From the NCBI RefSeq assembly GCF_000378965.1, contig NZ_KB900536.1, forward strand, positions 2,729,407-2,793,406: a stretch of 64,000 nt of DNA. The letters run 5' to 3'. This stretch comes from Thioalkalivibrio thiocyanodenitrificans ARhD 1 (GTDB taxonomy: Bacteria; Pseudomonadota; Gammaproteobacteria; Ectothiorhodospirales; Ectothiorhodospiraceae). Below are positions 6,695 through 63,393 of this stretch, one piece after another; within the stretch, counting starts at the first letter, position 1; each line of letters starts with the position of its first letter. The notes under the pieces are model-generated. The model was not told the DNA's origin. It made no database searches and saw nothing but the letters and a program-made list of their open reading frames with translations. Made by a program: the position numbers and the translations under genes.

Positions 6695-6857
6695 ATGACG
6701 AGGCTGATCGAAATCCCGTTGGGGTTTGCTCCGCTCGCGCCGACCTACCGATGCTGCCATGGCAGCCATTTGATACGAACCCGCACCCTGTTCGACGCCT
6801 CGGCGCTGTTCAGCGATCAACACCTCAACAAGGCTTGACCGGGAACGGAGTATCAAC

Positions 6858-7141
6858 GGCCTGCGGGCCGCCCCATGGATCGGGCCCGGCAGTAGGATGG
6901 GTCAAGCGAAGCGGACCCATGCTGTGCGGTCAGTCGAGGAGGCAGGAGTCAGGATGAGCGGGAGGCCCGCATGGGCACGCTGCGCTTTGCCCATCCTACG
7001 GCCTGCGGGGCGCCCCACGGATCGGGCCCGGCAGTAGGATGGGTCAAGCGAAGCGGACCCATGCTGTGCGGTCAGTCGAGGAGGCGGGAGTCAGGATGAG
7101 CGGGAGGCCCGCATGGGCACGCTGCGCTTTGCCCATCCTAC
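6858..7141. repeat. 142-bp tandem direct duplication, each unit holding a family B REPIN
   Basis: Unit 1 (6858-6999) and unit 2 (7000-7141) are nearly identical; differences are seen at the GGCCGCCCCATGG/GGGCGCCCCACGG junction and at one A/G position. Each unit contains an inverted pair starting GTAGGATGGGTCAAGC (6892 and 7034) and ending GCCCATCCTAC (6999 and 7141). The rest of the 6557-7186 gap shows no gene. Confidence 0.88.
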
Positions 7142-11956: not shown

Positions 11957-11984
11957 TTGAATCTTGAATCTTGAATCTTGTCTC
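11957..11984. repeat. Heptamer tandem array TTGAATC x3 plus one variant
   Basis: Three perfect TTGAATC units are followed by TTGTCTC, immediately downstream of the moaA stop. It belongs to the 7-base-period repeat class seen at many gene ends in this window. Confidence 0.85.
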
Positions 11985-42038: not shown

Positions 42039-42202
42039 GACGCAAAGGCGCAAAGGCGCAAAGGCGCAAAGGCGCAAAGACGCAAAGACGCGAAGACGCG
42101 AAGGGGCGCAAAGCGTATTGAATTGAAAACCGATCAATCCCGGCGTGGGTTCTTCGATCGGGAATTCTTTGCGTTTCTCTGCGTCTTTGCGCCTTTGCGT
42201 CG
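42039..42202. repeat. Octamer tandem array (GGCGCAAA type) with inverted counterpart
   Basis: About nine 8-base units (GACGCAAA, GGCGCAAA x4, GACGCAAA, GACGCGAA x2, degenerate end) run from 42039 to 42113. Reverse-complement units TCTTTGCG and CCTTTGCG lie at 42166-42202, so the purD-purH gap can fold into a long imperfect hairpin. This array has no long unique spacers and is not CRISPR. Confidence 0.85.
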
Positions 42203-45238: not shown

Positions 45239-46192
45239 TCAGTGAAAGCGGAACTCGTAGGCGACGGCCCGTGGGCCGGGGTCCTCGATCTCCAGGTGCA
45301 CATGGATCTGATCGCCGGGCGCGACCTGGCCGGTCTGTCCGCCGCGTTGCAGATACTCCTCCGGCGCGAAACGCCGTACGGCAAGCAGTTCACCCTGCAG
45401 ATCCCGGAAGCTGAGTTCCACCAGGGGATGGGGTTGGGCGAAGTCGGCCTGGTTGGCCAGCGTGGCCTGGACCATCAGACCCCCGGGTGTATTGGGATGA
45501 GAGTAAATGTTGCGGTTGCTGAGCCGGAAGGCGTCCGGATCGCGCCGCGGCGGAAGATCGCAGTCCAGCCGATTGCACATCCACTGGAGCAGCGGGGAGA
45601 CCTCGGGGTAGGCGGCCAGGCGGTTGCGCTCGTGGTAGATGACCTGGCCGGCCAGCAGGGAGATGAGCATCAGGCTGAGCACCCCCAGGGACAGGGTGCC
45701 CAGCACATATCGCGGTTTGCGCGGGGCCGCGGCGGATGCCACTTCGTCGCGGATCACCAGGGGCACCCGGTCCGGTGTTCCCGCGCCCTCCGGTTCCTTC
45801 GGGGCGGCATCCCCGGGGGGGGGCGGCTCTCCGCCGGCGCGGCTGGCCGGGTGGATGGCCCCCAGCATCGGTGCGGCATCCGGTTCGGGCGAGACGGGCG
45901 CGGGCGGATCGACCGCCACGGGAAGGTCGGGCGGGGGGTCCGGGTCATGGGCCTCGACCGTTGGTTTCGGGCCGTCATCCTGCCGCGTATCCGGCCAGGT
46001 GAAGTCCAGGGTGTCGGGTCCGGGGCGGTACGCGGATCCCGTGTCCGCGCCTTGCGGTGCAAGTACGCTCAGGGTCTCCAGTCCGTTGAACACCTGCCCG
46101 CATTCCCCGCAGCGCACGTTGCCGTCAGACGCGGTCAGCTCCGCGGTGGTGACCCGGAATACGGCCTCGCAATGGGTGCACTGTGTGTACAT
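45239..46192 (-). CDS. Zinc-ribbon DUF3426 membrane protein
   Basis: This 317-residue protein has three parts: an N-terminal zinc ribbon (CTHC at 5-8, CGEC at about 28-31, MJ0042 type), a long proline-rich linker, and one membrane segment (about 155-178, 'VLGTLSLGVLSLMLISLLAG') with a C-terminal DUF3426 domain outside the cytoplasm. Function is unknown, but the gene is regularly found between prmA and dusB. ATG 46192 is directly preceded by a CACTTGC heptamer array and no ribosome site. A TTG at 46231 would read through the array and add the repeat-encoded PLATCHL. Confidence 0.85.
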   Translation of the reverse strand: MYTQCTHCEAVFRVTTAELTASDGNVRCGECGQVFNGLETLSVLAPQGADTGSAYRPGPDTLDFTWPDTRQDDGPKPTVEAHDPDPPPDLPVAVDPPAPVSPEPDAAPMLGAIHPASRAGGEPPPPGDAAPKEPEGAGTPDRVPLVIRDEVASAAAPRKPRYVLGTLSLGVLSLMLISLLAGQVIYHERNRLAAYPEVSPLLQWMCNRLDCDLPPRRDPDAFRLSNRNIYSHPNTPGGLMVQATLANQADFAQPHPLVELSFRDLQGELLAVRRFAPEEYLQRGGQTGQVAPGDQIHVHLEIEDPGPRAVAYEFRFH

Positions 46193-46234
46193 GCAAGTGG
46201 CAAGTGGCAAGTGGCAAGTGGCAAGTGGCAAGGA
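46193..46234. repeat. Heptamer array GCAAGTG x5 plus GCAAGGA, abutting a start codon
   Basis: Five perfect units and one variant start at the base next to the ATG of the DUF3426 gene. The array occupies the position where a ribosome binding site would be expected. Confidence 0.92.
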
Positions 46235-51249: not shown

Positions 51250-51270
51250 TTCATCCTTCATCCTTCATCC
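51250..51270. repeat. Heptamer array TTCATCC x3 covering the prmA stop
   Basis: Three perfect units. Read on the minus strand (GGATGAA), they encode the final residues and the stop of prmA. Confidence 0.88.
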
Positions 51271-52135
51271 TTTCGCCTTCCAACAGCGCCCATCCCTCCC
51301 TGAACACCGGCTCTTTCATTGTGAACCCTCGGGCATAAGCGGCGGCCACGTCCCCGGCCTGCTGCGCCAGGAGCCCTGACAGGACCAGTTGCCCGCCAGG
51401 CCGCACCAGCCCGGTCAGCGCCGGTGCCAGGTCCACCAGCGGCCCACTCAGGATGTTCGCCATGACCAGGTCTGCCGGTGCCGCATCGAGGCTCCCGGGG
51501 AGATACACGGGCAGTTGGGCATCGGGAATGCGGTTGCGCCGCGCGTTGTCCCGGGTGGCGGTCAGTGCCTGGGGATCCAGGTCCACGCCCACGGCGTGGC
51601 GGGCGCCCAGCTTGAGGGCGGCGATGGCCAGCACGCCGGAGCCGCAGCCGTAGTCGATGACGGTGGCGTCCACCGGCGGATGGGCGTCGAGCCATTCGAG
51701 GCACAGGGCGGTTGTCGGATGGGTGCCGGTCCCGAAGGCGAGACCGGGGTCGAGCAGCAGGTTGACGGCGTCCGGGTCGGGGGGCTCGAAGCCCGTCGGG
51801 CAGATCCACAGGCCTGTACCGAAACGCATGGGCCTGAAATCGTCCATCCAGGCCCGCACCCAGTCCCGGTCTTCCACGTCTTCCCGCGTGATGGCTTCGG
51901 GGGACACGGCCAGCCGCGTGCACAGCGACAGCATTACGCATGCGGCTTCCACGTCTTCCCCGAACAGCCCGCTCACCGCGGCCTCGGGCCAGACCGGGGT
52001 CTCGCCGGGCAGCGGCTCCAGCAGGGGGTGATCACCGGCATCCTCCAGTGACGTGGACAGGGCGCCCAGTTCAAGGAACAGGTCCTCGACGGACGCCACC
52101 TGGTCGCCGGCAACGGTGAGTTTGAGTTTGTACAT
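51251..52135 (-). CDS. prmA: Ribosomal protein L11 methyltransferase
   Basis: The enzyme has 294 residues and trimethylates L11. It has an N-terminal substrate-recognition domain and the catalytic domain with 'LLLDPGLAFGTGTHPTTALCLEWL' (about 140-163), 'VIDYGCGSGVLAIAALKLG' (about 172-190) and 'DLVMANILSGPLVDLAP' (the N-I-L motif). The last codons, R-M-K-D-E-G, and the TGA are supplied by a GGATGAA heptamer array (51250-51270 on the plus strand as TTCATCC), so the tail beyond 'EGWALLEGE' is repeat-derived. Confidence 0.96.
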   Translation of the reverse strand: MYKLKLTVAGDQVASVEDLFLELGALSTSLEDAGDHPLLEPLPGETPVWPEAAVSGLFGEDVEAACVMLSLCTRLAVSPEAITREDVEDRDWVRAWMDDFRPMRFGTGLWICPTGFEPPDPDAVNLLLDPGLAFGTGTHPTTALCLEWLDAHPPVDATVIDYGCGSGVLAIAALKLGARHAVGVDLDPQALTATRDNARRNRIPDAQLPVYLPGSLDAAPADLVMANILSGPLVDLAPALTGLVRPGGQLVLSGLLAQQAGDVAAAYARGFTMKEPVFREGWALLEGERMKDEG

Positions 52136-54468: not shown

Positions 54469-54667
54469 GATTTTTCACGAAACTTCGGGAAATGAGCCGG
54501 AAACTTGTTTGTTTATGCAGTTTGTCCGGTAGGCCATGGCATTGTGCCTGATGCTTTTGGGGGTGTCCAGTGAGCATCGGACGGAAGGGCGGTAGACGCG
54601 GAAGATAGGCGCCGGATCGCGGAATTTGGCCGAAAGATTACGACACGAGGAATAGAAGGGCATTCAG

Positions 54668-54768
54668 AGTTCAAGGTTCAAAGTTCAAGGTTCAAGGGGG
54701 TGGCCAACCGGGCCTCGGCGCGAGCCGAAACGGTTTCCCCTTTGAACCTTGAACTTTGAACTTTGAAT
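54668..54768. repeat. Heptamer inverted repeat (AGTTCAA/GGTTCAA) after tlpA-like gene
   Basis: Units AGTTCAA-GGTTCAA-AGTTCAA-GGTTCAA (54668-54695) face the complementary units at 54741-54768. They lie between the TlpA-like gene stop and the aroQ upstream region. The rest of the 54469-54774 gap holds no gene. Confidence 0.88.
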
Positions 54769-54774
54769 CGCCTT

Positions 54775-55380
54775 TCAAAGCAGCGGCCGGAGTTCCCGCT
54801 CCAGGGTGTCCTTGTGCAATTCACCTGCCTGGACGAAGCGGATCCTGCCGTCGCGGCCCAGCAGGACGCTGTAGGGCAGGGCGCCCTGCCGGTTGCCGTA
54901 GTCACGGGTCACTGCCATGCCGCCGGACTGGCCGAGCAGCACCGGGAAGTTCAGATCATGGGTGTCCGCGAAATCGCGCACGGCCTGTTCATCGTCGATG
55001 GCCACGGCCACGATGGTCACGCCCCGGTCCCCGTAGGCATCCTGTACTTCCACGAAGGCGGGCATCTCCCTGAGGCAGGGCGGGCACCACGTTGCCCAGA
55101 AATTCACCAGCACCACGTCCCCGTCCCAGTCGCCGATGTGGCGCAACTCGCCGGCCAGGTCCGGCAGGGTGAAGTCCGGGCGCATCGTGCCCTTCACATC
55201 CCCGCTGCGCGGTGCCTCGGCACGCAGCGGGGCGGATTCGGGGGCCGTGCCCGTCAGGTGGTAGAACCCGAATCCGCCCATGCCCGCCAGCAGGGCAACC
55301 ACCACCAGCAGGATCAGAAAGGCCGGCTGGCTCAGGCCCGTGCTTCGCCGGGGGCGTGAGGTGGGTGCGGCCGTATGCAT
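54775..55380 (-). CDS. TlpA/ResA-like membrane-anchored thioredoxin
   Basis: The gene encodes a 201-residue protein with one N-terminal membrane segment (about 18-38) and a periplasmic thioredoxin domain. 'LVNFWATWCPPCLREMPAFVEV' carries the CPPC active site (about 107-110), preceded by 'DFTLPDLAGELRHIGDWDG', the AhpC/TSA-like entry typical of TlpA/ResA. 'ALPYSVLLGRDGRI' holds the cis-Pro. It is next to dsbD, its likely electron donor. The likely role is reduction of disulfides in cytochrome c or Sox proteins; not provable from sequence. Confidence 0.9.
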   Translation of the reverse strand: MHTAAPTSRPRRSTGLSQPAFLILLVVVALLAGMGGFGFYHLTGTAPESAPLRAEAPRSGDVKGTMRPDFTLPDLAGELRHIGDWDGDVVLVNFWATWCPPCLREMPAFVEVQDAYGDRGVTIVAVAIDDEQAVRDFADTHDLNFPVLLGQSGGMAVTRDYGNRQGALPYSVLLGRDGRIRFVQAGELHKDTLERELRPLL

Positions 55381-62702: not shown

Positions 62703-62826
62703 GCCTTGCAATAGGGGCCTGCAGCCCCCACCCTCCTACTGACGGCCATTCCCGGTCCGTACGACCCCGAGGCGCCTCGTGGTGCCCCGGGGTTTATTCA
62801 TCCTTCCACCTTCATCGTTGTCGCCA

Positions 62827-63309
62827 ATGCGCTCATTCCCCGTCCTCGCCCTGCTGTTCCTTGCCGTGCCCCTGCTGGAGATCTTCCTGTTCATCCAGGT
62901 GGGCGGCTGGATCGGGGCCTGGCCCACCATCGGGCTGGTGGTGCTCACGGCCATTGCCGGGGCGTTCCTCCTGCGTTGGCAGGGCCTGGCCACCCTGGGT
63001 CGGGTACGCCGCAGCCTGGACCAGGGGCAGATCCCGGCGCGGGACATGCTGGAGGGTGTGTTCCTGGTGTTCGGCGGGGCGCTGTTGCTGACGCCGGGCT
63101 TTTTCACCGATGCGGTCGGATTTGCATGCCTGCTGCCTCCCACCCGCCGGCTCATGGCGGTCTGGCTGATGTCGAAGGGGGTGTTCATCGTGCGTTCGTC
63201 CCGGGGCGGTCCGCCCCCCGGCGGCCCCGCCGGCCCCCGGCCCGGCGGCGGGCGTACCATCGAGGGGGAGTATTCAAAGGATGAAGGGGGAAGGATGAAG
63301 GACGAGTAA
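62827..63309 (+). CDS. fxsA: FxsA-family membrane protein
   Basis: A protein of 160 residues with three to four hydrophobic segments, starting MRSFPVLALLFLAVPLLEIFLFI. It matches FxsA with 'EIFLFIQVGGWIGAWPTIGLVVLTAIAGAFLLRWQGLATLGRVRRSL' and 'MLEGVFLVFGGALLLTPGFFTDAVGFACLLPPTR'. The Gly/Pro-rich tail ends 'KDEGGRMKDE', encoded by GGATGAA heptamer units, so the last part is repeat-derived. The E. coli homologue overcomes phage T7 exclusion when overproduced. It is upstream of groES, as often seen. Confidence 0.92.
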   Translation: MRSFPVLALLFLAVPLLEIFLFIQVGGWIGAWPTIGLVVLTAIAGAFLLRWQGLATLGRVRRSLDQGQIPARDMLEGVFLVFGGALLLTPGFFTDAVGFACLLPPTRRLMAVWLMSKGVFIVRSSRGGPPPGGPAGPRPGGGRTIEGEYSKDEGGRMKDE

Positions 63310-63310
63310 G

Positions 63311-63393
63311 TGCGAAGTGGGAATTGGGAAGTGCGAATGGTCCTCAATTCCTACTTCCCGATTCCTACTTCCCAATTCCTACCTCCCAATTCG
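63311..63393. repeat. Heptamer array forming inverted repeat upstream of groES
   Basis: The left part is GTGCGAA-GTGGGAA-TTGGGAA-GTGCGAA. The right part is CAATTCC-TACTTCC-CGATTCC-TACTTCC-CAATTCC-TACCTCC. It ends a few bases before the groES -35. Confidence 0.88.

Follow-up and report, generated by a model that had tools for sequence, protein, structure and literature searches.

A seven-base tandem repeat across stop codons supplies a common C-terminal tail to unrelated proteins in Thioalkalivibrio

The prmA gene of Thioalkalivibrio thiocyanodenitrificans ARhD 1 ends inside a tandem array of the heptamer GGATGAA, which codes for the final RMKDEG of the protein and for its TGA stop codon. Arrays of the same kind end unrelated genes elsewhere in the genus, in all three codon phases, and give their products the same tail or a part of it. 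The tail of PrmA is probably a by-product of a heptamer array that has come to lie across the stop codon and is tolerated there, and this is the explanation that best fits the evidence. A seven-base repeat would be able to straddle stop codons harmlessly, because its unit length gives a frame-independent end and makes copy number silent. The arrays would also give a simple reason for unrelated annotated proteins to end in the same C-terminal tail, which might otherwise be taken for a conserved motif. The window referred to throughout is the whole stretch of DNA analysed, 64,000 nucleotides of contig NZ_KB900536.1 (positions 2,729,407 to 2,793,406); G000 is the genome to which it belongs, and G001 to G004 are four congeners.

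The 3' end of prmA

Two features define the end of the gene:
51251 to 52135, minus strand: prmA, ribosomal protein L11 methyltransferase, 294 residues, C-terminus ERMKDEG (open reading frame and TIGR00406)
51250 to 51272, minus strand: GGATGAA array of 3.3 units, coding for the last residues and the TGA of prmA

The minus-strand reading frame at 51251-52135 terminates with LLEGERMKDEG and a stop codon. Its identity as PrmA is given by TIGR00406 (254 bits, cut-off 183), whose match stops at residue 282 of 294, and Thioalkalivibrio provides the closest named records with PrmA, a MAG (92%) and T. sulfidiphilus (76%). Tandem Repeats Finder reports 3.3 copies of TTCATCC at 51250-51272 with 100% matches, and the minus-strand reading of this unit is GGATGAA. 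With at most one mismatch, GGATGAAGGATGAA has two matches in the window, both within the prmA array, against a mean of 0.03 in shuffled sequence; the repeat exceeds chance. The first-pass annotation had proposed that GGATGAA units encode the last six residues and the stop of PrmA, and the array does so. It is a solitary array: no inverted partner was seen downstream, and the strand downstream of prmA has an RNA fold z of -0.84, no better than shuffles.

The comparison of PrmA homologues covered 110 loci, from which 107 distinct proteins of known stop position were obtained. A KDEG end is present in two of them, RMKDEG in the window and RIKDEG in congener G001, and these are the same two that have two GGATGAA units at the stop; the other 105 have neither. 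The tail therefore tracks the repeat, as no homologue among the 107 has the tail without it. Both G000 and G001 have three units in the prmA array. PrmA length was predicted to differ at the repeat among relatives, and it does: the protein has 294 residues with the repeat, 290 in G003 and G004, where it ends LLAGTRR, and 305 in G002, where the end is unrelated.

The 3' end of fxsA

A second gene of the window has a similar end, with these features:
62827 to 63309, plus strand: fxsA, from ATG, C-terminus EYSKDEGGRMKDE, stop TAA (open reading frame and profile match)
63277 to 63302, plus strand: degenerate AAGGATG array of 3.7 units in the 3' end of fxsA (Tandem Repeats Finder)
63308 to 63391, plus strand: inverted heptamer-like arms, 63308-63338 and 63361-63391, directly after fxsA (RNA fold z = -4.45)
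62797 to 62817, minus strand: degenerate stretch, TTCATCC-like on the plus strand, directly before the fxsA start codon (by eye)

FxsA ends KDEGGRMKDE in G000 and G002, KDEGGRMKDD in G001 and GEYRKDDP in G003 and G004. Since the last two species have GEYRKDDP, the first K-D is native and the first KDE largely so, and the addition is GGRMKDE only. The stop codon is a TAA within GACGAGTAA, outside any GGATGAA unit. The statement that FxsA ends in the same way as PrmA thus holds for the letters of its end, but not for the first KDE, which is largely native, or for the stop. FxsA also supplies the argument that coding sequence may seed an array, which would favour a reading in which the tails are native and the repeat-like DNA is a chance product of coding KDE-rich ends. 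Such a reading is hardly credible: for PrmA it is contradicted by the 105 homologues of 107 that have no tail, and at many loci the repeat runs on into non-coding DNA.

At the fxsA start (62797-62826), a pyrimidine-rich TTCATCC-like stretch precedes the ATG and no Shine-Dalgarno site is evident by eye. Several genes with arrays at their starts resemble this region.

Reading frame and unit number

Since seven and three are coprime and each GGATGAA unit carries one TGA, at least three units end every frame, as G, DEG or MKDEG followed by the stop. Read in silico, arrays of 3, 4 and 8 units have these three ends in the three phases, with an R before MKDEG if the preceding codon is AGG. One unit leaves two frames open in silico and two units leave one, while the opposite strand of the array has no stop. 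The end in each frame is the same with 3, 4 and 8 units, which sets the array apart from phase-variable contingency repeats, and beyond three units extra copies should leave the protein end unaltered. The 5-formyltetrahydrofolate cyclo-ligase gene (MTHFS) provides a natural example. G000 and G001 are four bases apart just upstream of its array, so that the array is entered in different frames, and despite this difference the proteins end GRMKDE and GRKDEG, respectively.

An array that absorbs a frame change in this manner might be kept as a fail-safe stop, a cassette ending translation in all frames, and GGATGAA, GGTTGAA, GGAAGTA and GGCGTGA do stop every frame on the listed strand. However, the units that overlap stop codons in the unsorted sample include some that are stop-free on that strand (GGTTCAA, GTTGTCA), and gene starts are also adjoined by arrays. 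Selection for a fail-safe stop is accordingly held to be unlikely.

Shared tails in other genes

Across the loci retrieved from the genus, the stop codon falls within a GGNNGAA array, or at its edge, in 41 called genes (22 in G002, 14 in G000, two each in G001 and G003, and one in G004). These genes are a catalogue and not a rate, since most loci were fetched for their arrays and some of the genes are orthologous. Sixteen of the proteins end KDEG, eight of these RMKDEG, and seven more end KVEG or KAEG. The earlier suggestion that a non-coding repeat extends unrelated proteins with one tail is supported by these ends. All three codon phases of the array are used, by 15, 14 and 12 genes. In about 11 of the 41 the array contributes no more than G or EG besides the stop, and the shared tail is accordingly short or absent. 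A Pfam scan of 20 of these proteins found families that include HrpB, MTHFS, phosphatidylserine decarboxylase, formyl transferase, TilS, ZnuA, an IF-2B family protein (MtnA by NCBIfam) and a PLD-family protein. The tail lies beyond the HrpB equivalog match, which stops at residue 826 (of 835), and beyond the RimO match, which stops at residue 439 (of 445); a second HrpB profile, below its cut-off, extends to residue 830 of 835. Samples drawn without regard to repeats show a heptamer array, whatever its type, across the stop codon in 13 of 375 genes of G000 (those of the window among them) and in five of 112 genes of G004. The prmA gene is the only GGATGAA case among the 13.

The presence of the tail on many unrelated proteins, in full as RMKDEG in 8 of 41, and its retention at both prmA and hrpB in G000 and G001 would be expected of a common C-terminal tag, for example one setting protein stability, that had been spread by the repeat. 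Against a functional tag, the tail varies in length and sequence (KDEG, KVEG, KAEG, DEG, EG, G), and most relatives of these proteins have no tail, as in PrmA. The RimO end differs in each of five species (RMKVEG, GEVGIGK, VRREA, SVN and KRKG). Because the tails vary and are exchanged between species, a tag was set aside as very unlikely.

Heptamer arrays as a genomic class

Three perfect GGATGAA units have 71 overlapping matches in G000, which form 16 separate arrays, against one match for the reversed control pattern. Among the 40 genomes searched, the pattern is present in all five of the genus (that of the window included) and is absent from the 35 genomes of other genera. A scan of 461 kb of G000 gave 33 perfect arrays of period 7, 32 of them intergenic, 11 of period 9 and 10 of period 14, and every other period from 2 to 30 has at most four; a looser test for period 7 found 46 arrays against none in one shuffle. 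Two other genera of the family, when sampled, showed zero and three perfect arrays, the three being in genes. Units vary by locus and include GGTTCAA, GGCAAGT, GTTGTCA, GGCGTGA and GGAAGTA, among others. The GGATGAA of the first-pass annotation is one member of a broader class of heptamer arrays at gene edges, in which inverted pairs are numerous. Two further members lie in the window:
46193 to 46232, plus strand: GCAAGTG array of 5.7 units, directly next to the start of gene 45239-46192, which is on the minus strand (Tandem Repeats Finder)
11957 to 11980, no strand assigned: TTGAATC array of 3.4 units, intergenic (Tandem Repeats Finder)

Several individual sites have features of their own. 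An upstream TTG of gene 45239-46192 would read the GCAAGTG array as MPLATCHLPLATC, ahead of the likely start MYTQCTHCEAVF. The longest array has 24 GGATGAA units and lies between convergent genes (G000:C1:907302-907469; L121:9303-9473), and 30 bases of its gap recur exactly next to the array in L137. At 42041-42104 of the window, eight copies of the octamer array CGCAAAGG have an inverted partner at about 42167-42201 (42039-42201 in all), which is the same design with an eight-base unit. A 142-base tandem duplication, in two copies that are 97% identical, is located at 6856-7141.

The position and polarity of the GGATGAA arrays were compiled from the three-unit matches (all of them for G000, the matches listed for the other genomes) and the listed two-unit matches. 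Paired arms were counted as two arrays, and gene starts are approximate, since genes were called by our own codon-usage script. The matches listed contain 73 arrays, of which 67 with both flanks known were used; three strictly within called genes and three with no known flank were left out. Two of the three gene-internal arrays are antisense, in reading frames that are possibly false calls. Among the matches listed, the closer of the two flanking gene edges lies to the 5' side, as read on the GG strand, for 64 of the 67 arrays, all 22 overlaps with a gene edge involve the 3' end of a gene in the sense direction, and the GG strand is antisense in the arrays that adjoin gene starts. An inverted partner is on the 3' side in 44 cases and on the 5' side in none, again among the matches listed. 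No array of these 67 lies between divergent genes; the three other classes of gap have 27, 21 and 19. Unsorted samples also have few arrays of any type in divergent gaps, 1 of 56 against 28 of 225 other gaps in G000 (p = 0.014) and 0 of 21 against 19 of 67 in G004 (p = 0.005). The strand rule has the same sign for other heptamers in the unsorted samples, where the counts of 13 to 7 and 7 to 2 fall short of significance, and is significant for other heptamers next to GGATGAA arrays (25 to 7, p = 0.002). The arrays share with the published intergenic heptamer repeats of bacteria (PMC4692102, PMC4679880) a seven-base unit in head-to-tail copies, a dispersed and mainly intergenic distribution, a strand rule at gene edges (for GGATGAA) and a shortage in divergent gaps.

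Fixed sites and changing units

Some sites have an array in several species while the unit differs between them. One of them lies in the window:
54670 to 54767, no strand assigned: inverted TTCAAGG-type arms, 54670-54700 and 54737-54767 (RNA fold of 54640-54785, z = -6.53)

At this site, after gene 54775-55380, the arms of G000 are of one type, and in G002, G003 and G004 both arms are of a related but different type. The rimO end has GGATGAA/GGTTGAA units in G002, GGAAGTA/GGAATTG in G003, GGCGTGA in G001, a degenerate GGAAGTG/GGAATT kind in G000 and another palindrome in G004. A long stem-loop is predicted there in all five species, at -62.6 to -104.6 kcal/mol in folds of differing length that had no shuffle control. 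The G000 site, compared with shuffles on the strand opposite to these folds, has z = -2.45, and 3 of 200 shuffles were as good. The hrpB end has GGATGAA in G000, G001 and G002 and the GGAAGTA/GGAATTG kind in G003 and G004; no pairing of the G000 and G001 arrays was found in the predicted folds.

For the 47 genes of the window that have orthologues, species share array sites in 21 pairs, where permutation gives 5.8 (p = 0.0002), or 9.3 if only G000 gaps of at least 80 nt are used (p = 0.001). This sharing supports fixed sites and not replacement as such, since shared descent contributes (G003 and G004 are close). Units count as different in 13 cases and as the same in 8, by a crude consensus in which some of the 'different' units are one or two bases apart. 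It is possible, and proposed here only tentatively, that gene-end stem-loops keep their place and shape while the heptamers of both arms are swapped between sister species, recasting the tail; this would involve concerted replacement, a selected 3' hairpin and active copying. Fixed sites with changing units are a natural test of the origin of heptamer arrays and of the preference for seven.

The arrays might instead be the ends of a palindromic mobile element, inserted at gene edges and bringing a stop codon. When the arrays are masked, 32 of 58 distinct regions have a core in common with at least one other region, in groups of 12, 6, 5, 3, 2, 2 and 2, and one core motif has 35 matches in G002. 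GTAG REPs, which are known suppliers of TAG stops, have moreover been reported in Thioalkalivibrio (PMC3733652). However, the remaining 26 regions, that of prmA among them, have no shared core, and matches to the core motif are few in the other four genomes of the genus (4, 2, 1 and 0). With seven core groups and 26 singletons among the masked gaps, the idea of one mobile element was set aside, and a mobile origin of the arrays is considered rather improbable. A link to Y1 transposases was rejected, since these are not specific: they are found in 21 of 24 genomes searched, and 16 of these are outside the genus, where the three-unit pattern is absent.

The largest of these groups has a core starting TGAAACCACCCC between the arms, in 12 of the 58 regions (G002 gaps, for example L144:2563-2722). 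The distribution of its entry motif, 35 matches in G002 against 4, 2, 1 and 0 in congeners, suggests recent spread in one species. Some cores between arms are REP-like, by eye only.

Origin of the tail

The sequence of the tails, their link to the arrays, the use of three phases, and the position, strand rule and pairing of the arrays are direct observations, and the tolerated by-product is the reading that would join them. Heptamer arrays of several sequences lie in the intergenic DNA of the genus, beginning at gene edges and often forming two inverted arms. Those of the GGATGAA type would halt translation in every frame on one strand, the one that is sense where genes end. Whatever the frame in which a gene arrives, translation would enter the array for a few codons and end as a suffix of RMKDEG. 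Because the protein stays the same when units are gained, or lost down to three, the array would be tolerated at the stop. The arrays may grow by slippage, although copy number was not seen to vary within a species, the second arm of paired arrays could be produced by template switching, and the tail itself is presumably neutral. The likeliest function of paired arms would be as RNA stem-loops at transcript ends. The prmA gene is a poor case for this role, as its array is solitary and its fold z is -0.84, in contrast to two paired sites of the window (z = -6.53 and -4.45).

Comparison with known systems

Polar, paired and stop-supplying heptamers are already in print, so the class itself is known. 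The TAACTGA repeats of marine Beggiatoaceae are dispersed intergenic tandem heptamers like the arrays described here, and their forward repeats stop all three frames, 13 sets lying over stop codons (PMC4679880). In that system one heptamer dominates and is mostly just upstream of start codons in the forward direction (PMC4679880), whereas here each genome has several units, the strand that carries the stop is the sense strand where genes end, and arms are frequently paired in inverted orientation. The 22 edge overlaps among the matches listed, all with gene 3' ends, separate GGATGAA from the TAACTGA type. A shared tail is not described for TAACTGA repeats in the part available (PMC4679880). 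According to work cited in the same source, heptamers are the most frequent long repeats of most genomes, and contact with the polymerase may favour seven.

The GGGNATC repeats of Xanthomonas and Nostoc are near stops on the sense strand and near starts on the antisense strand, with few between divergent genes, and convergent pairs number 70 and 75 in two Xanthomonas genomes (PMC4692102). GGATGAA has the same strand rule, the same scarcity in divergent gaps and convergent pairs. GGGNATC differs in having runs of at least three G and has been studied as quadruplexes (PMC4692102); the runs of two in GGATGAA do not form the four runs of at least three G that define a G-quadruplex motif. GGGAATC has no stop on either strand in silico. 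Long Xanthomonas repeats are not bound to the same genes in two species (PMC4692102).

Reading frames that flank GTAG REPs often take their TAG stop from the ends of the repeat, and Thioalkalivibrio is among the carriers of these REPs (PMC3733652). They are short palindromes and not tandem heptamers, and the trait in common with the arrays here is that both are dispersed and supply stops. In Geobacter metallireducens, tandem heptanucleotides of consensus GGACCGG or MTYCTGA, some within genes, are annotated as regulatory elements or binding sites (PMC2700814); they are dispersed and tandem like the present arrays. No report of a shared tail, or of one unit replacing another at a fixed site, was found in a literature search that had most subscription journals outside its coverage. 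Within a known class of repeats, the features that seem to be new are therefore the shared, frame-independent tail and the replacement of units at a fixed site.
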